This document shows positions 3,563-40,037 of a stretch of 40,383 bases of DNA, piece by piece; within the stretch, counting starts at the first letter, position 1, and every line of letters begins with the position of its first letter. A program made the translations under genes and the position numbers. Location of the stretch: the IMG/VR virus record IMGVR_UViG_3300046777_001852, positions 1-40,383 of that record; one strand, given 5' to 3'. The notes under the pieces were generated by a model. It was not told the origin of the DNA and made no database searches. It was given only the letters and a program-made list of their open reading frames with translations. This stretch comes from a virus.

Positions 3563-5287
3563 ATGAAAGTTTTAGGTGTACAAGTTCATCACAATTCTTC
3601 TGTGTGTCTTTTTGATGATGCGGACTTAATTTATTATAATCTGGAAGAAAGAGTATCTAGACTTAAAACCAAGGGAGGAATTCCCGTTAAGTGTTTATTA
3701 GAAATAAAAAAAATTATAGATTATGTAGATGTAATAGTAATATCTGCATATAATTCTGACTGGGATAATTCCGCTATGGTAGCTCATTATATAAGAGATG
3801 AGTTGGGAATTATGTTTGGAGAATTTTTTTATTACTATAAATCTCATCATCTAGCACATGCTTTTAAAGCTTTTGCCTCTTCAAATTTTTCGGAGTCTTT
3901 AGTAGTTGTTTGGGATGGAAGAGGATCTAATTATAGTCTTACTGATGGTTCGGTTGCTTATGAAACAACATCTGTGTTTCATATTTCATATGAAACAGGT
4001 ATTAAATTGGTAAGTAAAAAATTGTATAGTTATAACTCTTCTCAAAATAAAAATGCAAATGATCTTCATGTAAAATATTCTACTGATCATTATTTTAATA
4101 ATATTGATACTACTTTTAATTTGCATGAAAATTATACTGAAGAAATATTAACAAAAAAAGTTGATATTGGAGAATTTTATGATATTGTTGTAGAACATTT
4201 GGGATTTAACTCTCTGAGGGATCAGGGAAAAATAATGGGAATGTATTCATACGGAAATGAAAATAAACTCATATCAAATTTGATACTTGATAATGATCTT
4301 AATGGATTTACTGCGAATATTTTAAATTCTGGATTAGATAAAATAGATTCTCAAAAACATAAATTTTTGGAAACGAAAAAAGAAAATAAACAAACTCTTT
4401 TTGATCTAGCGTATGAAACTCAGAAAGGATTAGAAAAAATAGGATTTAATACTATACAAAAAAGTTTAGAAACTAATTTATCTAAAAATTTAGTATTGAC
4501 TGGTGGTGTATCTTTAAATATTGTCGCAAATAGTTTTTATAAAAAAAATCTTCCAAAAGATATTAATTTGTATGTGGATCCATTGTGTGGTGATGACGGA
4601 AATTGTATTGGGATATCTCAATTATACTTATTTGATAAATTACAAATTAAACCTAAAGTTCCTAATAAAATATATTTGTGTGGAAAAGATCCTGTATATA
4701 AATTAAATATGCATGTTAGTGAACAAATATTTCATGATATTGATCCTTCTTTTGTAGTAGAAAAGATATTAGAAGAAAATATTGTTGCTATTTTTCAAGG
4801 TAAAGCTGAAGCTGGACCAAGAGCATTAGGTAATAGAAGTTTGTTATTTGATCCTAGAATTAAAAATGGAAAGGAAATAGTTAATAGAGTGAAAAAGAGA
4901 GAATCATTTCGACCCTTTGCCGCATCTATTTTATTAGAAGAAGCTCCTTATTGGTTTGATATGTCTTTAATGGAGGAATCTCCTTATATGATGTATTCCT
5001 TTGAAGTTTTACCCGAAGTTAAATCTAAAATTCCCTCAGTTATACATGTGGATAATACTTGTAGAATTCAAACAGTAACCAGAGAACAAAACTATCATTA
5101 CTATCGTTTAATTGAAACATTTTTTTACACGACAAAGGTTCCCATTCTTTTTAATACATCATTTAATCTTGCTGGAGATCCGATAGTTGAAACTATAGAT
5201 GATGCTCTAAATACTTTGAGGAAATCTGAGTTGGAATATCTATATTTACCTGAAATTAGTAAATTGATTTATGTAAAAAATAAATGA
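3563..5287 (+). CDS. Carbamoyltransferase 1 (NodU/CmcH/TobZ family)
   Basis: 574 aa, close to the family's usual length. The N-terminal Kae1-like domain starts MKVLGVQVHHNSSVCLF and holds the metal-binding SHHLAHAF motif (94-101). LTGGVSLNIVANS lies at about 312-324. The C-terminal YrdC-like domain has AEAGPRALGNRS (about 415-426) and the closing PILFNTSFNLAGDPIV. Family enzymes form carbamoyl-AMP from carbamoyl phosphate and ATP and transfer the carbamoyl group to a hydroxyl on a sugar, antibiotic or modified base. The gene looks visibly more AT-rich than its neighbours, suggesting separate acquisition. A second, divergent member lies at 11029-12528. The acceptor is unknown. Confidence 0.9.
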   Translation: MKVLGVQVHHNSSVCLFDDADLIYYNLEERVSRLKTKGGIPVKCLLEIKKIIDYVDVIVISAYNSDWDNSAMVAHYIRDELGIMFGEFFYYYKSHHLAHAFKAFASSNFSESLVVVWDGRGSNYSLTDGSVAYETTSVFHISYETGIKLVSKKLYSYNSSQNKNANDLHVKYSTDHYFNNIDTTFNLHENYTEEILTKKVDIGEFYDIVVEHLGFNSLRDQGKIMGMYSYGNENKLISNLILDNDLNGFTANILNSGLDKIDSQKHKFLETKKENKQTLFDLAYETQKGLEKIGFNTIQKSLETNLSKNLVLTGGVSLNIVANSFYKKNLPKDINLYVDPLCGDDGNCIGISQLYLFDKLQIKPKVPNKIYLCGKDPVYKLNMHVSEQIFHDIDPSFVVEKILEENIVAIFQGKAEAGPRALGNRSLLFDPRIKNGKEIVNRVKKRESFRPFAASILLEEAPYWFDMSLMEESPYMMYSFEVLPEVKSKIPSVIHVDNTCRIQTVTREQNYHYYRLIETFFYTTKVPILFNTSFNLAGDPIVETIDDALNTLRKSELEYLYLPEISKLIYVKNK

Positions 5288-11028: not shown

Positions 11029-12528
11029 ATGAAATTTATTGGATTGAGATTGTGTGAACACGATTCAAATATTTCTTATTCTAATGGTAAACATGTAAAA
11101 TATTATAAGTCGGAAAGGGATTATCAAATTAAGCATCATGGATTTCAAGATCTTAATCAGTGGAAAAAAATAATTGATAATTGGAATATCAATCCTTCTG
11201 AGATAGAAGCGATAGGAATCGTTCTCGATTGTTTTAGTCATCCATATTTAAAATGTGATGAATCTAAACTTTATGAAACAATTGATATTCCATTATTTAA
11301 ATTAATGGGATTTGATTGCCCAGTTTTTAGAATAGATCATCACTATGCACATTTTTTAAGTTCATGGCCATTGGGTATTGATCCAACGATAGGATTTGTA
11401 TTTGATGGATTTGGAGATGATTTTATTACTCACAGTATTTTTAAATCTAACGAAAAGATATTAAATTATAATTCAACATCATCTCCTTCTTTAGGATGTG
11501 TTCTTGGAATGTTGGGTGAACAACTTAATATTTCTGGAAATTCTCTTGATCATGCCGGAAAAATTATGGCATTAAAGGGATATGGAAAACTTTCTTCAGA
11601 AGAAATTAAAAGAGAAAAAGAACGACTTTCTAGATTTAATATAAACTTTTTAGATATTTTGTGGAATGTTTTTTGTATTGAGAATTTAAATGAGCAAGAA
11701 AGGTATAATCATATCCAATTGTGTCATGAAGTAACCGAACAAATTTACGCAGATCATTTTACACAATATTCTCATAACGAAGATGTAGTTTGTTATTCTG
11801 GAGGTATATCTCAAAATACAATCATCAATACTAAACTTAAAAAAGTTAGACACAATCTTCACATTCCACCTCACTGCAATGATGAAGGATTATCTTTAGG
11901 TGTGGTTGAATTTTTGAGGCAATATTATCAACAAGATTCTTTCGATAGAACAGGATATCCTTTCTGGCAATCTGATGAGGCGCCAGATTCTGTTGCTTCA
12001 GAAAAAACAATTTCTAGAACCGCTGAATTATTAGCACAAGGAAAGATTGTTGGGTGGTATCAAGGACATGGGGAAGTTGGTGCAAGAGCACTTGGTAATA
12101 GAAGTATTTTAATGGATCCAACCGTTAAAAATGGAAAAGAAATTTTAAATCAAAAAGTCAAACATCGAGAATGGTATCGGCCCTTTGGAGCATCTATTCT
12201 TGAAGATGAAATTCAAAATTATTTCGATTGGAATGATACTTCTCCATATATGCTGTATGTAATGGATGTATTGGACAAACAAAGTTTTCCAGCAATTACA
12301 CATATAGATGGTACATGTCGAACACAAACAGTATCATCAAATTTAACGTCTTATTATTCTTTAATTAATAAGTTTGGAGATCTCACAGGAATTCCAATGT
12401 TGTTAAATACATCTTTAAATAATGGAGGTAAACCAATATGTGGAAGTGTAAATGAGAGTTTAGAACTTCTTACCTCAAGTGAGTTGGACGTATTGGTAAT
12501 TGGTGACGAGATCTACGAAAAGACTTGA
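11029..12528 (+). CDS. Carbamoyltransferase 2 (NodU/CmcH/TobZ family)
   Basis: 499 aa, about 75 shorter than carbamoyltransferase 1. Metal motif DHHYAHFLSSW (103-113), SGGISQNTIINT near 260-271, and the YrdC-like EVGARALGNRSILMDPT at about 349-365 with MLLNTSLNNGGKPI near the end. All main motifs are retained, so it should be active. The N-terminal half differs strongly from copy 1, arguing for an old paralogue or independent gain, and for a different hydroxyl acceptor. It sits behind a late box and before a sigma70 promoter that overlaps its stop. The acceptor is unknown; nucleotide-sugar, glycan or DNA base are all possible. Confidence 0.88.
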   Translation: MKFIGLRLCEHDSNISYSNGKHVKYYKSERDYQIKHHGFQDLNQWKKIIDNWNINPSEIEAIGIVLDCFSHPYLKCDESKLYETIDIPLFKLMGFDCPVFRIDHHYAHFLSSWPLGIDPTIGFVFDGFGDDFITHSIFKSNEKILNYNSTSSPSLGCVLGMLGEQLNISGNSLDHAGKIMALKGYGKLSSEEIKREKERLSRFNINFLDILWNVFCIENLNEQERYNHIQLCHEVTEQIYADHFTQYSHNEDVVCYSGGISQNTIINTKLKKVRHNLHIPPHCNDEGLSLGVVEFLRQYYQQDSFDRTGYPFWQSDEAPDSVASEKTISRTAELLAQGKIVGWYQGHGEVGARALGNRSILMDPTVKNGKEILNQKVKHREWYRPFGASILEDEIQNYFDWNDTSPYMLYVMDVLDKQSFPAITHIDGTCRTQTVSSNLTSYYSLINKFGDLTGIPMLLNTSLNNGGKPICGSVNESLELLTSSELDVLVIGDEIYEKT

Positions 12529-30800: not shown

Positions 30801-30884
30801 ATGACAGACGCCCCAATTACTCGCGTTATCATGTATTCCATAATACTTGAGGTTTATTTTAACCTCGTGTACAATGTCGTTTAG
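30801..30884 (+). CDS. 27-aa hydrophobic leader-like peptide upstream of porin
   Basis: ATG 30801 reads MTDAPITRVIMYSIILEVYF and stops 20 nt before the porin start. No clear ribosome site. Its last third overlaps a GAGGTT/AACCTC hairpin (30849-30866). It could be a leader peptide or chance; the 189-nt gap otherwise holds only regulatory-looking sequence. Confidence 0.3.
   Translation: MTDAPITRVIMYSIILEVYFNLVYNVV
30847..30875 (+). promoter_or_regulatory. Possible sigma70 promoter for porin
   Basis: TTGAGG (30847-30852), 17-nt spacer, TACAAT (30870-30875). The spacer contains the GAGGTT/AACCTC inverted repeat, which could serve as an operator. Confidence 0.4.
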
Positions 30885-30903
30885 TACAAAACACAAATCT
30901 TTT

Positions 30904-32406
30904 ATGAAACTCAAACAACTGATGCTTGCACCTGTTGCTCTGGGAATGGTTGCTCCTGTTGCTGCGAATGCCGCAGATCTTAATATGGCAGCAGTCAACC
31001 AATATGTTTCCTCCGAGCAGGTCTCAAGTATCACTCAATTGTCTGATGTAAAGCCTACTGATTGGGCTTATCAGGCACTCAGCAATCTTGTTGAGCGTTA
31101 TGGTTGCGTTGCTGGTTATGAAAACGGAACTTACCTTGGTGGTAAGGCAATGACTCGTTTTGAAGCCGCTGCACTTCTGAATGCTTGTCTTGATCGCGTA
31201 ACTGAAGTCACCGATGAACTCCAGCGTCTTGCTACCGAGTTCGCCAATGAACTTCAAGTTCTTCGTGGTCGTGTTGCTAAACTGGAGAAACAAACTGCTG
31301 CTCTTCAGGCACAGCAGTTCTCTACCACTACCAAACTCAAAGGTGAAGCAACCTTTGTTTTGGGTGGTGTAGATGGTGCTCGTCTTGCTAACAGCACTAA
31401 TGTTGGAAACACTGCTTTCAACTATGACCTCCGCCTGAGTTTTGATACTTCCTTCACTGGTAAGGATCTGCTCAAGACCCGTCTGCGTTCTGGTAACTTC
31501 TCCTCGCAACCTTTCGGTTCTTCTTCCTCCCTGTTCAAACTGGACAAGGCAGAAACCTATGCGAACCAAGTCACTCTTGATCGTCTGTACTACAGCTTCC
31601 CTGGTCTGACCAAAGGTATGACTCTGACTGCTGGTGCTCTCGTTCGTAACACTGAGATGGCGTGGGTTCCTACCGCATACAAGTCGGACGTTCTTGACTT
31701 CTTCTCTGTTGCTGGTGCTCCTGGTGTCTACAATAAGGCAACTGGTTCTGGTTTCGGTGCTCAGTGGGCACAACCTACCAAGAAAGGTAAGGGTGGATTC
31801 GTTGCTGGCATCAACTACGTTGCCCAGAATGGTAACGACAGCACCAAAGGTCAGTTTGATGAAGATGGTTCTCTGAACACTCTTGCTCAAGTTGGTTATC
31901 GTGCTCCTCAATACGGCATCGCATTCGGTTACCGCTATGGTACTGAAGGCACCCGTGTTCGCACCTTCAACGCTCTGGGTGGTGGTTCTGGCAACCTTGC
32001 TGCTAACCAAACCTCCAATGGTTATGCTATCAATGCTTACTGGCAACCCAAGAAGTCGGGTATCATTCCTTCTGTGAGTGGTGCTTATGGTTGGAACACC
32101 GTAAGTCTTTCCAACAACCGCACGACTCCTACTGGTGCTACCGATTCACAAACTTGGATGGCAGGTCTTCAGTGGAGCGATGTGTTTGTTAAGGGTAATG
32201 CCGCTGGTTTTGCCATCGGTGCTCCTGGTAACGCTGCTTCTCTTGCTGCTGATCGCAAAGCGATTATGTGGGAAGCCTTCTATCGTTACAAAGTTAGCGA
32301 TGCGATCAGCGTGACTCCTGCTGTATTTTATGTGTCTAACAACCAAGGTCTGAAGCAAGCTTCCGATAACTATGGTGGTGTGATTCAGACGACCTTCCGT
32401 TTCTGA
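30904..32406 (+). CDS. Cyanobacterial-type SLH/OprB outer-membrane porin
   Basis: 500 aa from ATG 30904, chosen because MKLKQLMLAPVALGMVAPVA followed by ANA-ADL is a clean signal peptide; ATG 30874 is possible. An SLH domain (about 41-98: SDVKPTDWAYQALSNLVERYG, GKAMTRFEAAALLNACL) leads to a coiled coil (about 100-137) and then a beta-barrel with alternating strands ending in TTFRF with terminal Phe. This is the architecture of cyanobacterial SOM/iron-uptake porins. Codon use (CTG, ACC, CGT, GGT) is visibly more GC-rich and optimised than the glycan block, suggesting recent host origin and high expression. Confidence 0.88.
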   Translation: MKLKQLMLAPVALGMVAPVAANAADLNMAAVNQYVSSEQVSSITQLSDVKPTDWAYQALSNLVERYGCVAGYENGTYLGGKAMTRFEAAALLNACLDRVTEVTDELQRLATEFANELQVLRGRVAKLEKQTAALQAQQFSTTTKLKGEATFVLGGVDGARLANSTNVGNTAFNYDLRLSFDTSFTGKDLLKTRLRSGNFSSQPFGSSSSLFKLDKAETYANQVTLDRLYYSFPGLTKGMTLTAGALVRNTEMAWVPTAYKSDVLDFFSVAGAPGVYNKATGSGFGAQWAQPTKKGKGGFVAGINYVAQNGNDSTKGQFDEDGSLNTLAQVGYRAPQYGIAFGYRYGTEGTRVRTFNALGGGSGNLAANQTSNGYAINAYWQPKKSGIIPSVSGAYGWNTVSLSNNRTTPTGATDSQTWMAGLQWSDVFVKGNAAGFAIGAPGNAASLAADRKAIMWEAFYRYKVSDAISVTPAVFYVSNNQGLKQASDNYGGVIQTTFRF

Positions 32407-32525: not shown

Positions 32526-33503
32526 ATGAAACTCAAACACATTGCTACAATCGGTCTTGCTTTTGCTCCTGCTGCTGCATTTGCTGGACCTGCTATTAAT
32601 GGTGCTGGTGCTACCTTCCCTGCACCTATCTACCAGCGTTGGTTCCAAGATTACGCTGCTGCTACTGGTGAAAGAGTAAACTATCAGTCCGTTGGTTCTG
32701 GTGCTGGTATCCGCCAGTTCGTTGCTGGAACCGTTGACTTCGGTGCTTCTGATGAACCTATTAAGGCAAAAGAAGCAGCAAAAGTAAAGCGTGGTGTCGT
32801 TCAGATTCCTATGGTGGGTGGAACTATTGCTGTTGCTTATAACAAACCTGGATGCAAACTGAAACTGACTCAGAAGCAAACTGTCGATATCTTTGCTGGT
32901 CGTATTAAGGACTGGAAGCAAGTCGGTTGTGCTGCAGGTTCTATCAGAGTTGTTCATCGTTCGGACGGTTCTGGAACCACTTATGCTTTCACCAACTCTC
33001 TGGATGCCTTTGGTGGTTGGACTGCTGGTGTAGGTAAGTCAATCAACTGGCCTACTGGTGTTGGTGCTAAAGGTAATGAAGGTGTTGCTGGAACTCTTTC
33101 CAACACTCCTGGCGGTATTGGTTATTTGAACACTGGATTTGTTCGTGCTAACAAACTCCAAGCCGCTGTTCTTCAGAACAAGGCAGGTAAGTTTGTCGGA
33201 CCTTCTGCCGTGACTGGTGCCGCTGCTCTGAATGGTATCAAACTGGACCCCGTGACCCTTGCTGGTGAAGATCCCAACCCTGCAGGCGTCCGTGCCTATC
33301 CTATTTCCACTCTGACCTGGATTCTTGCTTATAAGAATGGTTATGCTCCTGGTAAGGCACAAGCAGTTCGTGATGCTATCAATTATGCTCTGAGTTCTAA
33401 AGCACAATCTATTGCGGATGACTTGGGTTATGTTCCTCTTGCTGGTTCTATTCTGAATCGTTCCCGTCTGAAAGTCCAACAAATCGGTCTGGGCGAGAAG
33501 TGA
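32526..33503 (+). CDS. pstS: Periplasmic phosphate-binding protein
   Basis: 325 aa. Signal peptide about 1-20 (AAAFA-GPAI). GAGATFPAPIYQRWF, SVGSGAGIRQFVAG, FGASDEPI and HRSDGSGTTYAFTN are the PstS phosphate-site loops; TLSNTPGGIGYLNTGF completes the second lobe. It captures phosphate for the host ABC importer PstCAB, supporting phage DNA synthesis in phosphate-poor sea water. Preceded by a Pho box and followed by a terminator, so it is an independent, host-regulated unit. Codon use is host-like. Confidence 0.95.
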   Translation: MKLKHIATIGLAFAPAAAFAGPAINGAGATFPAPIYQRWFQDYAAATGERVNYQSVGSGAGIRQFVAGTVDFGASDEPIKAKEAAKVKRGVVQIPMVGGTIAVAYNKPGCKLKLTQKQTVDIFAGRIKDWKQVGCAAGSIRVVHRSDGSGTTYAFTNSLDAFGGWTAGVGKSINWPTGVGAKGNEGVAGTLSNTPGGIGYLNTGFVRANKLQAAVLQNKAGKFVGPSAVTGAAALNGIKLDPVTLAGEDPNPAGVRAYPISTLTWILAYKNGYAPGKAQAVRDAINYALSSKAQSIADDLGYVPLAGSILNRSRLKVQQIGLGEK

Positions 33504-35156: not shown

Positions 35157-35163
35157 ATAAATA
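35156..35163 (+). promoter_or_regulatory. T4-type late promoter fused to terminator
   Basis: Exact TATAAATA beginning on the last base of the T run, 24 nt before the C39 peptidase-like gene. Confidence 0.75.
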
Positions 35164-35187: not shown

Positions 35188-35859
35188 ATGACTCTAGATC
35201 TCCATAACTTTTTTAAGTTTTATGATGAGAAGAACGCAAATCACGTAGCTGCTGTTCAGTGGTTGGAAGATAATCTTCCCGCACAATTTCTAGACGACGC
35301 AGAGACTGATTGGATTGGTATTTTCAGAACAAAACCACCAACTCCAGCAGTACTCGATGTTCCATATTTCAATCAAGTAGACAACTACAGAGATGCACAT
35401 AGAACTTGTAACAGTTCGTCATGTGCTATGTGTCTTGCATTCCTCAAGCCAGGAAGCATCAAAGGTGACGATGAGTATGTTAAGAAAGTATTTGCGATTG
35501 GCGACACGACTGACCATGCGGTACAAACAAAGGTACTTGCAGGTTATGGAGTTAAGTCACACTTTAGTTACAATCTTTCTTTTGCTGATATTGATAAAAG
35601 TCTTGACGCTGGGAAACCCGTTGTTATTGGTATCCTTCACCGTGGTCCTTTATCTGCACCTACTGGTGGGCACATGTGTGTAGTCATCGGTAAGACACCA
35701 GATGGTAAGGGTTACTATGTAAATGATCCATATGGTTCATGTAATGATAATTACACTGGTCCAGTAACAAATGGTAAGAAGACCATTTATACTAAAGCAA
35801 TGCTTAAGCATCGTTGGTGCCCAGGAGGTAACGATGGCTGGGGAAGAATCTTCGATTAA
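35188..35859 (+). CDS. C39-like peptidase with phage N-terminal module
   Basis: 223 aa. Residues 1-47 (DLHNFFKFYDEKN, VQWLEDNLP, DWIGIFR) form a module shared with the GH24 lysozyme at 35958. From about 55, VLDVPYFNQVDN, likely nucleophile Cys79 in NSSSCAMCLAF, His162 in GGHMCVVIG and Asn179/Asp180 in VNDPYG fit a C39_2 papain-like fold. Probably cleaves peptide cross-links or host proteins. No signal peptide, so it may be a virion-borne or holin-released enzyme. Confidence 0.75.
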   Translation: MTLDLHNFFKFYDEKNANHVAAVQWLEDNLPAQFLDDAETDWIGIFRTKPPTPAVLDVPYFNQVDNYRDAHRTCNSSSCAMCLAFLKPGSIKGDDEYVKKVFAIGDTTDHAVQTKVLAGYGVKSHFSYNLSFADIDKSLDAGKPVVIGILHRGPLSAPTGGHMCVVIGKTPDGKGYYVNDPYGSCNDNYTGPVTNGKKTIYTKAMLKHRWCPGGNDGWGRIFD

Positions 35860-35971
35860 TTTCAAGAGAAAGATGCTTAAGGTTATTAAGGATCTTACAA
35901 ACAACGGTAAACATAAAGAAGCAAACGACCTTTTTCAAAAGTATTTTGGAGGACCAAATGGCAAGAGTTGA
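35834..35971 (+). CDS. Small basic protein between the two lytic genes (45 aa)
   Basis: ATG 35834 with GGAGG 5-9 nt upstream, overlapping the peptidase by 26 nt and the lysozyme by 14 nt. Lys-rich helical product (FKRKMLKVIKDLTNNGKHKE) ending in GGPNGKS. Overlap on both sides suggests a tightly coupled trio; it may regulate or chaperone a lytic partner. Confidence 0.6.
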   Translation: MAGEESSINFKRKMLKVIKDLTNNGKHKEANDLFQKYFGGPNGKS

Positions 35972-36626
35972 TCTACACAATTTCTTTCAGTTTTATGACG
36001 AAAGAAATCCAAATCACGTTAAAGCAGTTCAATGGTTAGAAGACAATCTTCCCGTTAAGTATCTGGAAGATAATGTTGATTGGGCGGAGATTTTTAGAGG
36101 AAAAAAGACTAGTGCTGCACCAGCCCCAGCCGCTGCTGCAGCTCCTGTAACTGGTGGTGATGATGTCCCACAAATGGGCATCAAGTTAATCAAGGAGTTT
36201 GAAGGATGCCACCTTAAGGCATATCCTGACCCTCTGACTGGTGGACTTCCAATTACTATTGGTTGGGGATCTACCCGTAAGAAGGATGGGTCACCTTTCA
36301 AACTTGGTGATACACTGACTCAACAGGAAGCAGATGCACTTCTGATTGAGCAGTGTAAGAAGGAGTTTCTTCCCGCATTACGCAAAATCCCATATTGGAG
36401 TGAAATGTCAGATGGAAAAAGAGGAGCTTTGCTCAGCTTTGCTTATAATCTTGGTGCCGGTTTTTACGGTGGCGATAACTTTAATACTATTACTAAACGC
36501 TTGAAGAATAAAGAGTGGGACTTAGTTCCTGATGCTTTATTCCTCTATCGCAATCCTGGTTCTAATGTAGAGGCAGGTCTCGCAAGACGCCGTAAGGCAG
36601 AGGGCGAAGCCTGGAAGAAGGGATAA
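35958..36626 (+). CDS. GH24 (T4-type) lysozyme with phage N-terminal module
   Basis: 222 aa from ATG 35958 (GGAGG upstream). Residues 1-47 repeat the module of the C39-like peptidase; an Ala/Pro linker spans 50-66; the GH24 domain starts near 72 with FEGCHLKAYPDPLTGG and TIGWG, giving Glu82, Asp91 and Thr100 as the E-D-T triad. LSFAYNLGAGFY and GLARRRKAEGEAW complete the fold. It cuts the glycan backbone of peptidoglycan. The extra N-terminal domain is not in T4 gpe. The stop codon merges with a late-promoter box. Confidence 0.88.
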   Translation: MARVDLHNFFQFYDERNPNHVKAVQWLEDNLPVKYLEDNVDWAEIFRGKKTSAAPAPAAAAAPVTGGDDVPQMGIKLIKEFEGCHLKAYPDPLTGGLPITIGWGSTRKKDGSPFKLGDTLTQQEADALLIEQCKKEFLPALRKIPYWSEMSDGKRGALLSFAYNLGAGFYGGDNFNTITKRLKNKEWDLVPDALFLYRNPGSNVEAGLARRRKAEGEAWKKG

Positions 36627-36696
36627 ATAATTACAATCATAACTGATTCTTGATCTTTTGATCTGAATCTACATACTCCGAGTCCTCTGGACTTGG
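36623..36696 (+). promoter_or_regulatory. Late box and paired hairpins before the barrel protein
   Basis: ATAAATA at 36623-36629 overlaps the lysozyme stop. Two hairpins follow: GATTC-GATC/GATC-GAATC (36645-36669) and CCGAGTCC-TCT-GGACTTGG (36678-36696, one G-T), then a T-rich stretch. A 137-nt leader this structured suggests attenuation or mRNA stabilisation. Confidence 0.45.
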
Positions 36697-36765
36697 TGAA
36701 TACTTTACTTTTTAAACACACTTCGGTCTGTTTTGTTTAGTACACACTAAGCTCAGAGGATTCTT

Positions 36766-38589
36766 ATGTCTTACGCTACAAGGGCGCTTGCTGTAGCGTC
36801 TGCTCTTTTGATGGGAGCACCAACAGCAGTATTAGCACACACTAACTCTATCGGATATGTTGGTTCAGGCAATGGAACAGTTACCTTTTGGTATGGTAAC
36901 TGGCATCCTGGAACCACCTTTACTGAAGGTACTATGACCTTGCAAGGTGTAAATGGAACTAGTTTTGCACCAACAACCGTCAACTGGACCTTAATTCAGA
37001 ACACAATGCCTACAGGTCTTGTTTCTGGAACAAACTATTTTATGAGTGACGGAACATCTCTTGTTCCATATGTTGCTGGTAACTCAGGATGTGTTTATAA
37101 TTCTTGTACAAGTTATAGTTGGCAGGGTGTAACATTCACTGGTCTTTCTGCTGGTGATTATCAGTTTACTTATAATCCTATTCAATATCCAACGGCAAAC
37201 TGGGACCCAGCACACCCAACAATTCAAACTGGTACTGTAACTCTTACAAGTGCAATTATTGCTGGTCCATCAGCACCAACTGTTACATCAACTGCTGCTG
37301 GTTCTGATATTGTTACTACATCAACAACTTATGGAACCAGAACTGTAACTGGAAATCCACACAGACACGTGATGGGAACTGATGCGAATGGTAATCAAAC
37401 AGAAACTCACTATACTGATAGTGCTGTAACAACCATTCCAACAACCACAGTTACTACCACAACAACTCCAGTAACAGTTACAACTTGGTCTGATGGTTCT
37501 ACTACCACAACAAATGGTACTCCAGTTGTAACATCAGTCACAACTGATGATAATGCTGGAACAACTGTTATTACTCAAACCAACGTAATTGATTGGGTAA
37601 AGACCAGAACTTATGATGTTGCTGCTGTTTCTTCAGTTCAGCATACAGCATCTGAAAGTGGTGGAAAGCAAAAAGTCAATGCCTATACAACCACTACAAC
37701 CACAACCACTCCAGTTTACACAAAGGTCTACCCCAATGGTTCCCCTACTGTAGTTACAACTGGTCCTGCAACTGTTGATGTTGCTTATGCATCCAGAGAT
37801 TACTTTGGTCGTATTGATCAGTTAGAAGTTCTTGATGGAATCAATGATGGTATTAATGGACTTCTGAATCACGAACCAACCTCAGGTAAGCAAAGATTGA
37901 GAGTGTTTGAGAACAACAGATTTGTTCAATCATACAATGCCGATGGATACACTGCAGATTCCAAGATCTTCGGTGGTGGTTTTGAGTTTGATGTAACTAA
38001 AGGATGGACTCTTGGTGGACAGTATAATAGAGTTAACATAAACCTCAATGGTGTTGACTCAAGCACACAACAGAACAAAGATCACTTTGGTGTATTCAGT
38101 GAACTCAGAGGAAACACACTGACTCTGAATACTAATGCTGCTATTGCGAACAGCAACTACAAGTATAACAGAAATGTTGAAGGTGTCTTTAATAATGCTG
38201 GCGAAACAACTGGTTCTGAGTGGTGGGTATCCAATCGTTTATATTGGCATCTTCACAAGGCAGTAAAACCATTTGTTGGTTATACTGTTCAGAATGTAAA
38301 GAGAAACGCTTATAATGAAACTGGTTCTTCAGAATCTGCTAGAAATGTTGGTGAGTTTAATCAAACCACACACGTTGGAGAAGCAGGACTCAAACTGGAA
38401 ACTCGTTTTGGTGGTAAGAAAAAGGATCTCTTTGGTGTTAGCGTAGAAGGTGCTTATGGAACTGATAACTCTTATGGAGTTACTGCAGAAGTGGATTATA
38501 AAGAGATGTTAATTGTCGAAGCATCTCATGGTGTAAATAATGGAGTCACCAACAATTCTATTGCTGGTAAGATTAAATTTAAGTTCTAA
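36766..38589 (+). CDS. Secreted Thr-rich protein with beta-barrel-like C-terminus
   Basis: 607 aa. Signal peptide about 1-24 (SALLMGAPTAVLA-HTN). A passenger-like region follows, then Thr/Val tracts at about 220-275 and 305-335 (TTTVTTTTTP, TTTTTTTTPVY), and from about 390 a run of alternating polar/hydrophobic strands (GGGFEFDVTKGWTLGGQYN, LYWHLHKAVKPFVGYTVQ) ending IAGKIKFKF with a terminal Phe, the BAM signal. This resembles an autotransporter-like outer-membrane protein. Encoded by phage it could alter the infected cell surface; a virion role is the alternative. Unrecognised as a family. Confidence 0.6.
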   Translation: MSYATRALAVASALLMGAPTAVLAHTNSIGYVGSGNGTVTFWYGNWHPGTTFTEGTMTLQGVNGTSFAPTTVNWTLIQNTMPTGLVSGTNYFMSDGTSLVPYVAGNSGCVYNSCTSYSWQGVTFTGLSAGDYQFTYNPIQYPTANWDPAHPTIQTGTVTLTSAIIAGPSAPTVTSTAAGSDIVTTSTTYGTRTVTGNPHRHVMGTDANGNQTETHYTDSAVTTIPTTTVTTTTTPVTVTTWSDGSTTTTNGTPVVTSVTTDDNAGTTVITQTNVIDWVKTRTYDVAAVSSVQHTASESGGKQKVNAYTTTTTTTTPVYTKVYPNGSPTVVTTGPATVDVAYASRDYFGRIDQLEVLDGINDGINGLLNHEPTSGKQRLRVFENNRFVQSYNADGYTADSKIFGGGFEFDVTKGWTLGGQYNRVNINLNGVDSSTQQNKDHFGVFSELRGNTLTLNTNAAIANSNYKYNRNVEGVFNNAGETTGSEWWVSNRLYWHLHKAVKPFVGYTVQNVKRNAYNETGSSESARNVGEFNQTTHVGEAGLKLETRFGGKKKDLFGVSVEGAYGTDNSYGVTAEVDYKEMLIVEASHGVNNGVTNNSIAGKIKFKF

Positions 38590-38625: not shown

Positions 38626-38964
38626 ATGGGAAACACAAAGGAAAAAGCTATGGGACAAGTGATTCGTATTGCTATTCTGAGTTGGTCTGCCGCTCTTTTG
38701 ACTGCATCATATGCTGGTATGCTCTCTAAGATGGATCCAACTTTCATTGCGACCGTCTTTACTGCCTCTGCTGCTACTTTTGGAATTAATACCATGAAGA
38801 AAGGTGGAGAAGATGATGAAAAGAAAGAAGAGCCAAAGAGAGAAGAAGTGGTGGTTGAAGCTCCACCAGAATTACCTGTTTCGGAAGCGCCAGCACCATC
38901 TCTTGAAGAGAGAGTTGAAGCTCTTGAGGAGGGTCAAGTTCAACCACGTACCGCAGGAGCATAA
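38626..38964 (+). CDS. Holin-like membrane protein
   Basis: 112 aa; ATG 38650 (MGQVIRIAILSW) is an alternative start giving 104 aa. Two hydrophobic segments (about 11-31 and 38-54) are followed by a strongly charged tail (GGEDDEKKEEPKREE) and a Pro/Glu-rich end. This size and layout suit a class II/III holin, and it lies 2 kb after the lysozyme. No sequence family is recognised, so the role is inferred from topology and context. Confidence 0.5.
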   Translation: MGNTKEKAMGQVIRIAILSWSAALLTASYAGMLSKMDPTFIATVFTASAATFGINTMKKGGEDDEKKEEPKREEVVVEAPPELPVSEAPAPSLEERVEALEEGQVQPRTAGA

Positions 38965-39093: not shown

Positions 39094-39294
39094 ATGCCAC
39101 GCGAATGGAATACTCCAATTCGAGAACCTTGGAATCCTGTAATTAAAAAGTGCCTTGATGCTGTCGATGAACACATCAAGGCATATGTTAAAACAGGAGA
39201 TGACTGGCACTTATCACAAGCAGAAATATTAAGAAAGTATGTAAAAGATTTGAAGGTCTGGATACACAAAAAAGAAGGATGGTGGGATGAATGA
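39094..39294 (+). CDS. Small hypothetical protein (66 aa)
   Basis: MPREWNTPIREPWNPVIKKC then a helical LDAVDEHIKAYVKTGDDW and C-terminal HKKEGWWDE. Trp-rich, soluble. Stop overlaps the next start (ATGA). It looks like a conserved cyanophage protein; function unknown. Confidence 0.65.
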   Translation: MPREWNTPIREPWNPVIKKCLDAVDEHIKAYVKTGDDWHLSQAEILRKYVKDLKVWIHKKEGWWDE

Positions 39295-40037
39295 AAAAAC
39301 TCCTTACAGCATTCGGTTTATCTTTAACTTTATCATTTCCAGTAGGTGCTAGTTCTTTAGAAAAGAAACAACCAACAGTTCCAGCATACAGCCTTGCAGC
39401 GATGGGTTGTATGATACTCAGAGAATGTACAGAAGGGGTCGAACAACTTACACCAGACTCTGCATTTTTATCTGGTAAAGAGTTTGATAACTTCAGAACA
39501 GAAATCAAATCTATTCTAGCAGCACTCAATAAACTGAATGTTCCAGTTTATGTTGGTCCGAGTAGATACTTCACACCACGAACGATTGGTTTATACAAAC
39601 CAGAATACAATCGTTTCTTTATCAATGAAGAACTGCTCAAAGATCCTAGAGAGTTTCTGGGAACTTTAAGACATGAAGGGTGGCACGTGGTTCAGGATTG
39701 TATGGGTGGTGGATTAAAAACTTCATTCATGGCACAAGTACATCAAGACTCAGAGATTCCTGCTTGGGTGATGAAGATGACTAAACTATCTTATGAATCT
39801 ATGGGAATGAGTCGTGCTGTACCTTGGGAAGCAGACGCAAACTGGGCAGAAGAACAGTCAGGTCAAACTGTAAAACACTTGGAGATGTGTGCTAAAGGTC
39901 CACTATGGGAACAGGTAAGACCAACTCCTATGACGATGGAATGGCTAATTGGATGTGGGTGGATGAAACCACAAGAAGGTTATAAGGAATATACACCAAA
40001 TAAAAAGTCAGATTATTGTGTAGAAGGTAAGTACTAA
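39291..40037 (+). CDS. Secreted HEGWH metallopeptidase-like protein
   Basis: 248 aa. Signal peptide about 1-20 (LLTAFGLSLTLSF-PVGA-SSLE). Zinc motif RHEGWH at 127-132 (HExxH) with a plausible third ligand Glu180 in PWEADANW about 50 residues on, a gluzincin-like spacing. Cys pairs (40/46 and 137 with later Cys) suit a periplasmic disulfide protein. Probably a periplasmic protease acting on envelope proteins or precursors, or a virion-associated enzyme. Family not recognised. Confidence 0.6.
   Translation: MKKLLTAFGLSLTLSFPVGASSLEKKQPTVPAYSLAAMGCMILRECTEGVEQLTPDSAFLSGKEFDNFRTEIKSILAALNKLNVPVYVGPSRYFTPRTIGLYKPEYNRFFINEELLKDPREFLGTLRHEGWHVVQDCMGGGLKTSFMAQVHQDSEIPAWVMKMTKLSYESMGMSRAVPWEADANWAEEQSGQTVKHLEMCAKGPLWEQVRPTPMTMEWLIGCGWMKPQEGYKEYTPNKKSDYCVEGKY

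Follow-up and report, generated by a model that had tools for sequence, protein, structure and literature searches.

A type Va autotransporter with exchanged passenger domains at a fixed locus of T4-like cyanophages and its possible role at the infected-cell surface

Introduction

A stretch of viral DNA of 40,383 nt (IMGVR_UViG_3300046777_001852; the whole stretch analysed is called the window here) raises the question of why a lytic phage should encode a protein resembling the autotransporters of bacteria, and of what such a protein would do on a cell that is already doomed. The open reading frame concerned occupies positions 36766-38589 of the plus strand, starts with ATG and encodes 607 aa. 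A chance open reading frame is excluded because 189 IMG/VR stretches encode a relative (191 in a barrel-based search) and because median dN/dS is 0.16-0.29 (N-domain 0.24, linker 0.29, barrel 0.16), values which indicate that every part of the protein is under purifying selection.

Results and discussion

Genomic context and phage identity

The gene content of the 40 kb contig is that of a T4-like cyanophage and includes the ribonucleotide reductase small chain, a peroxiredoxin, PstS, endolysins and a glycosyltransferase, and further open reading frames have homologues among the genes of Synechococcus phages DSL-LC02 and DSL-LC03, namely hli and ferredoxin. These two are the nearest named genomes, with protein identities over the autotransporter gene of 62% and 46%, respectively; both derive from metagenome assemblies of Dishui Lake, with Cyanobiaceae as the predicted host (PMC10611076). 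Where the context of the relatives is known, they are T4-like cyanophages and the named ones come from a lake; the label “freshwater” is based on the two Dishui Lake genomes. The gene lies between those of a lysozyme and a DUF6450 protein:

35188-35859, plus strand: C39-peptidase-like endolysin (conserved synteny; late motif ATAAATA at 35157-35163)
35946-36626, plus strand: phage lysozyme (conserved synteny)
36766-38589, plus strand: autotransporter gene, 607 aa (open reading frame, relatives and dN/dS as above)
38626-38964, plus strand: DUF6450 small membrane protein, one or more hydrophobic segments (PF20048, hydropathy, synteny)

Elsewhere in the window, two carbamoyltransferase-like genes (3563-5287 and 11029-12528) carry the Pfam Carbam_trans N and C domains. 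Downstream of the locus, positions 39291-40037 encode a 248 aa protein of phrog_591, a family of unknown function, which is conserved in most relatives; it has a signal-peptide-like start and a histidine-rich LRHEGWHVVQD segment, and is possibly secreted with a metal site.

Anatomy of the protein

From the N- to the C-terminus, the protein comprises the following parts:

36766-36837, plus strand: signal peptide, residues 1-24 (basic start, hydrophobic core, conserved A/S-x-A/S site before the mature His)
36838-37260, plus strand: N-terminal passenger, class I “HTN” domain, residues 25-165 (AF2 beta-sandwich; homologues in bacterial surface proteins)
37261-37800, plus strand: Thr-rich linker, residues 166-345, predicted beta (Thr/Val composition; strands in the model; recombination zone)
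37819-37863, plus strand: helix before the barrel (pore helix), residues 352-366 (AF2 model)
37897-38586, plus strand: 12-stranded translocator barrel, residues 378-607 (AF2 strands; PF03797; Foldseek)
38566-38586, plus strand: C-terminal beta-signal GKIKFKF

The protein begins with MSYATRALAVASALLMGAPTAVLA, and HTNS follows the A/S-x-A/S-like cleavage site. Pattern, hydropathy and conservation all identify this segment as a predicted Sec signal peptide, as is characteristic of type Va autotransporters, and the His directly after the cleavage site is invariant in every class I relative counted. The linker consists of 31% Thr and 13% Val and is mostly beta in the AF2 model. A preliminary description of this DNA had proposed a signal peptide, which is borne out, and linkers of nearly pure Thr/Val; the Thr-rich linker is real, but only brief stretches, for example TTTVTTTTTPVTVTT and TTTTTTTT, come near to purity.

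In the AF2 model, one helix is followed by exactly 12 strands in a single chain (residues 378-606, a broken first strand counted once). PF03797 matched the C-terminal part alone with 60.2 bits (cut-off 26) and scored 57.9 bits in a genome search; hmmscan with the full-length protein missed the barrel, for which a composition filter is our guess. When the predicted structure was compared with the PDB by Foldseek, ranks 1-14 were all autotransporter translocators (NalP, EstA, Hbp, BrkA, EspP and AaaA), with a TM score of 0.73 for NalP by target length. The chain ends in GKIKFKF with an aromatic last residue, and K-F-x-F is invariant in 36 relatives. The outer-membrane barrel with passenger, the 12 strands and the alternating C-terminal strands ending in Phe that had been anticipated from the letters are thus all supported; a predicted structure without a barrel would have spoken against that description, and the model came out the other way. 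In the TXSScan model, PF03797 above its curated cut-off is the sole mandatory part of a type Va autotransporter (PMC4793230); the predicted translocator scores above this value and, in the structural model, combines the 12-stranded barrel with a pore helix ahead of it. We therefore regard the overall anatomy, with high confidence, as that of a classical type Va (monomeric) autotransporter. The full-length model has a pTM of 0.44, so that it does not fix the relative placement of the domains.

Two other structural assignments were considered. A trimeric autotransporter (type Vc, YadA-like, with a short 4-strand anchor) was rejected, there being no YadA-type Pfam match and twelve strands in one chain. 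The protein could also be a virion component, that is, a decoration or fibre protein with a barrel-like domain; YadA-like domains have been reported in phage virion proteins (PMC9146016), and the late motif described below would suit such a role. The signal peptide and the monomeric translocator barrel argue against it, and a search of the PHROGs structural families gave no match for the whole protein or the barrel and only chance-level matches for the N-domain. A virion fibre was accordingly rejected as the main reading, and a virion role of any kind is very unlikely.

The class I passenger and its bacterial relatives

The class I N-domain was modelled as a beta-sandwich (pLDDT 86, pTM 0.85). 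Passengers of type Va autotransporters are usually, although not universally, beta-helices; here the N-domain model is a beta-sandwich and the linker is predicted to be beta. Fold searches with the N-domain against PDB and BFVD gave no significant match and therefore suggest no ligand.

Contigs from bacterial genome assemblies do contain the domain, with identities of 45-58%. Four of these (L086, L087, L088 and L089), together with the more distant L097, carry it right after the signal peptide of a protein with a C-terminal PF03797 barrel, at 45-50% identity to the phage N-domain (in L097, 33% across the N-terminal part); by our reading of the translations, the flanks of L086 and L087 resemble ordinary bacterial genes. 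Among more distant copies, the protein in L093 ends in a PEP-CTERM sorting signal, and that in L098 has a similar C-terminus below the cut-off. The HTN domain is nevertheless rare, with matches in 3 of 369, 1 of 199 and 3 of 289 genomes of class- or phylum-level samples, the query genome being counted each time. Roughly half of the N-domain residues are identical, yet the phage barrel can hardly be aligned with the bacterial ones, so the two modules have had separate histories; the linkers also differ, with Big_5 repeats in L088 and L089. Concerning a host origin of the barrel, PF03797 was absent from S. elongatus, the only cyanobacterium in our control panel.

The mature class I passenger (window positions 36838-37260) starts with His-Thr, invariant in phage and bacterial homologues, and H1 is also kept in the distant ones. 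A second conserved His lies in WYGxWH, where metal binding would be a guess. A copper “histidine brace” formed by H1 and H23 is likewise guesswork and was rejected as a candidate, since the counterpart of H23 in L098 lies one position away and neither LPMO nor CopC was among the best Foldseek matches.

Autotransporters are often adhesins, and the protein might cause infected cells or their debris to adhere to other cells or to particles, thereby raising contact between progeny and hosts. The occurrence of the passenger domain in bacterial surface and PEP-CTERM proteins speaks for this, as does the variety of passengers described next; on the other hand, the passengers match no adhesin family and the benefit to a lytic phage would be indirect, so we consider an adhesin unlikely.

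Passenger exchange at one locus

Three unrelated passenger classes were found among 70 distinct, intact and assignable proteins, with 51 belonging to HTN (class I), 13 to DFEGG (class II) and 6 to GNxVKIG (class III). The locus itself is fixed: lysozyme lies upstream and the DUF6450 protein downstream in nearly all relatives with flanking sequence, including those with the other passenger classes. In a further stretch (L069, 887-2275), passenger and barrel lie in different frames; the gene appears disrupted here, either by a frameshift or through misassembly.

Within class I, the pairwise identities of N-domain and barrel are uncorrelated (rho 0.05, Mantel p 0.23), whereas correlations of 0.72-0.90 are obtained between segments of the barrel and of 0.67 between segments of the N-domain; the linker takes an intermediate place. 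This pattern places recombination in or near the linker. The comparison of alleles indicates that passengers are swapped between related viruses on a conserved export scaffold.

Expression signals

Two elements precede the start codon:

36622-36629, plus strand: late-promoter motif GATAAATA
36671-36769, plus strand: 5'-UTR hairpin whose pairing takes in the ribosome-binding site and the AUG (fold energy; covariation)

The first matches the cyanophage late motif NATAAATA (PMC2984593). It occurs at -100 to -149 in 34 of 40 relatives, also where it is shifted relative to the lysozyme stop codon. Its 7-base core has 8 copies in the window, all on the plus strand, which is below the shuffled expectation; the argument is therefore the conserved position and not the count. 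Judging from this motif, late expression of the gene is likely.

The hairpin lies between the motif and the start codon, so transcripts from the motif would contain it. It folds at -43 kcal/mol (z -6.7) and pairs with the Shine-Dalgarno sequence and the AUG. When 29 relatives are compared, pairing is retained in 98.6% of pair cells, and compensatory changes are seen at 7 of the 22 pairs; double-change cells number 22, versus 2.9 in shuffles, and slid controls are far lower. Alleles with another signal-peptide start (MSTNTQ or MSTYTQ) have a different, unrelated hairpin directly before the AUG. No Rfam family matches the UTR hairpin, which could delay translation.

Distribution and the question of lysis or nutrient capture

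Among 50,697 annotated phage records, the autotransporter gene is present in only two, while the neighbouring C39 endolysin is present in 106; the gene is thus limited to a subset of cyanomyoviruses. These counts led us to reject an essential lysis protein, and they bear equally on a broader proposal, in which the barrel is part of the lysis programme and weakens or opens the outer membrane as infection ends, replacing or working beside spanins, together with the endolysins and the DUF6450 protein. The fixed position between lysozyme and DUF6450, the late motif and a hairpin that could delay translation would all suit such a part, but related phages lyse without the autotransporter and passenger exchange would be unexpected, which makes a lysis role improbable.

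Ten long gene-bearing contigs contain gp23 in 2, psbA/psbD-type reaction-centre genes in 4 and an OprB porin in 8 cases; since these contigs are fragments, absences of genes in them mean little. In the window, the porin (30847-32406) joins an SLH domain to an OprB barrel and is 74.5% identical to the porin of the freshwater isolate S-SRM01; a PstS-like phosphate-binding protein (phrog_5385, PBP_like_2; 32526-33503) is encoded between porin and autotransporter. The porin is present in the window and in most of the long contigs, so the changes that these phages make to the outer membrane may be wider.

The SLH-OprB porin and PstS genes, 3-6 kb upstream, and the co-occurrence of the porin in most long contigs also suit a reading in which the autotransporter, like these proteins, serves nutrient capture during infection. 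However, autotransporter barrels carry a plugging helix and make poor pores, and the passenger resembles no solute-binding family; we consider nutrient capture highly improbable.

A possible role in adsorption

The preliminary description had listed superinfection exclusion, vesicle formation, aggregation and nutrient capture as possible functions, which the sequence by itself neither proves nor ranks. Roles related to adsorption are our first choice because of the late-promoter motif and the passenger exchange. According to this proposal, the protein would be exported by Sec, its barrel would be inserted in the outer membrane by the host BAM machinery, and the passenger would be displayed outside the infected cell. 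There it could mask or compete for a receptor and so change what can adsorb; rival phages would then fail to superinfect, and freed progeny would avoid sticking to the dead host envelope. The three passenger classes and their many mosaic alleles fit a binding function whose target varies with the host or the competitor, and the presence of the class I domain in bacterial autotransporters and PEP-CTERM-type proteins also counts in favour. Superinfection exclusion is usually most profitable when made early, and the late position of the motif here is a point against the proposal, as are the low full-length pTM, the fold searches without a significant match for the N-domain and the fact that the bacterial homologues of the passenger are without known function.

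From its sequence, the autotransporter probably alters the surface of the infected cell. Our best overall reading, in which an autotransporter, made late and displayed at the surface, alters adsorption to the infected cell or to debris from it, is plausible but falls short of probable, and the adsorption role by itself is possible and on the doubtful side. More speculative, and rather unlikely as a whole, is a surface-conversion cassette of freshwater T4-like cyanophages, in which an autotransporter scaffold at one fixed locus, with passengers exchanged by recombination within the Thr-rich linker and with a late motif and a translation-gating hairpin, would set which phages adsorb to infected cells and debris, in many cases together with an outer-membrane porin that the phage also encodes.

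The sequence indicates that the host machinery for outer-membrane assembly is put to use by a lytic phage to show a protein of its own outside a doomed cell; the exposed part varies modularly, whereas the export scaffold is conserved. Should this be confirmed, the surface of an infected cell would be something that cyanophages can alter in a tunable manner, and cell-surface change has been put forward as an idea for cyanophage LPS genes (PMC2984593). Because viral contigs commonly carry the gene, a single cultured phage would be informative for a large group.

Comparison with known systems

The protein class is known already, and one member has been correctly named by automatic annotation: DSL-LC03 encodes an “autotransporter outer membrane beta-barrel domain-containing protein” which, like its DSL-LC02 homologue, is a direct homologue at the same locus. 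That name is an automatic annotation only, and the paper on these genomes (PMC10611076) mentions no autotransporter. Our search of openly accessible literature found no paper on a cyanophage autotransporter of this type, and within that scope the exchange of passengers, the hairpin in the UTR and the link to the HTN domain appear undescribed.

Like the type Va autotransporters NalP, EstA, EspP, Hbp and BrkA, the phage protein unites in a single chain a signal peptide, a passenger, a helix, a barrel of 12 strands and a beta-signal. It differs from them in that its gene belongs to a lytic phage and follows a late motif, in that its N-domain is a short beta-sandwich in place of a long beta-helix, and in that passengers are exchanged between alleles. 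The T5 lipoprotein Llp and the Lc porin of the lambdoid phage PA-2 are phage-coded envelope proteins that alter adsorption, and the proposed effect on adsorption to the infected cell would make the cyanophage protein similar to them; those are a lipoprotein and a porin, whereas here an autotransporter with an exchangeable passenger would take this part.
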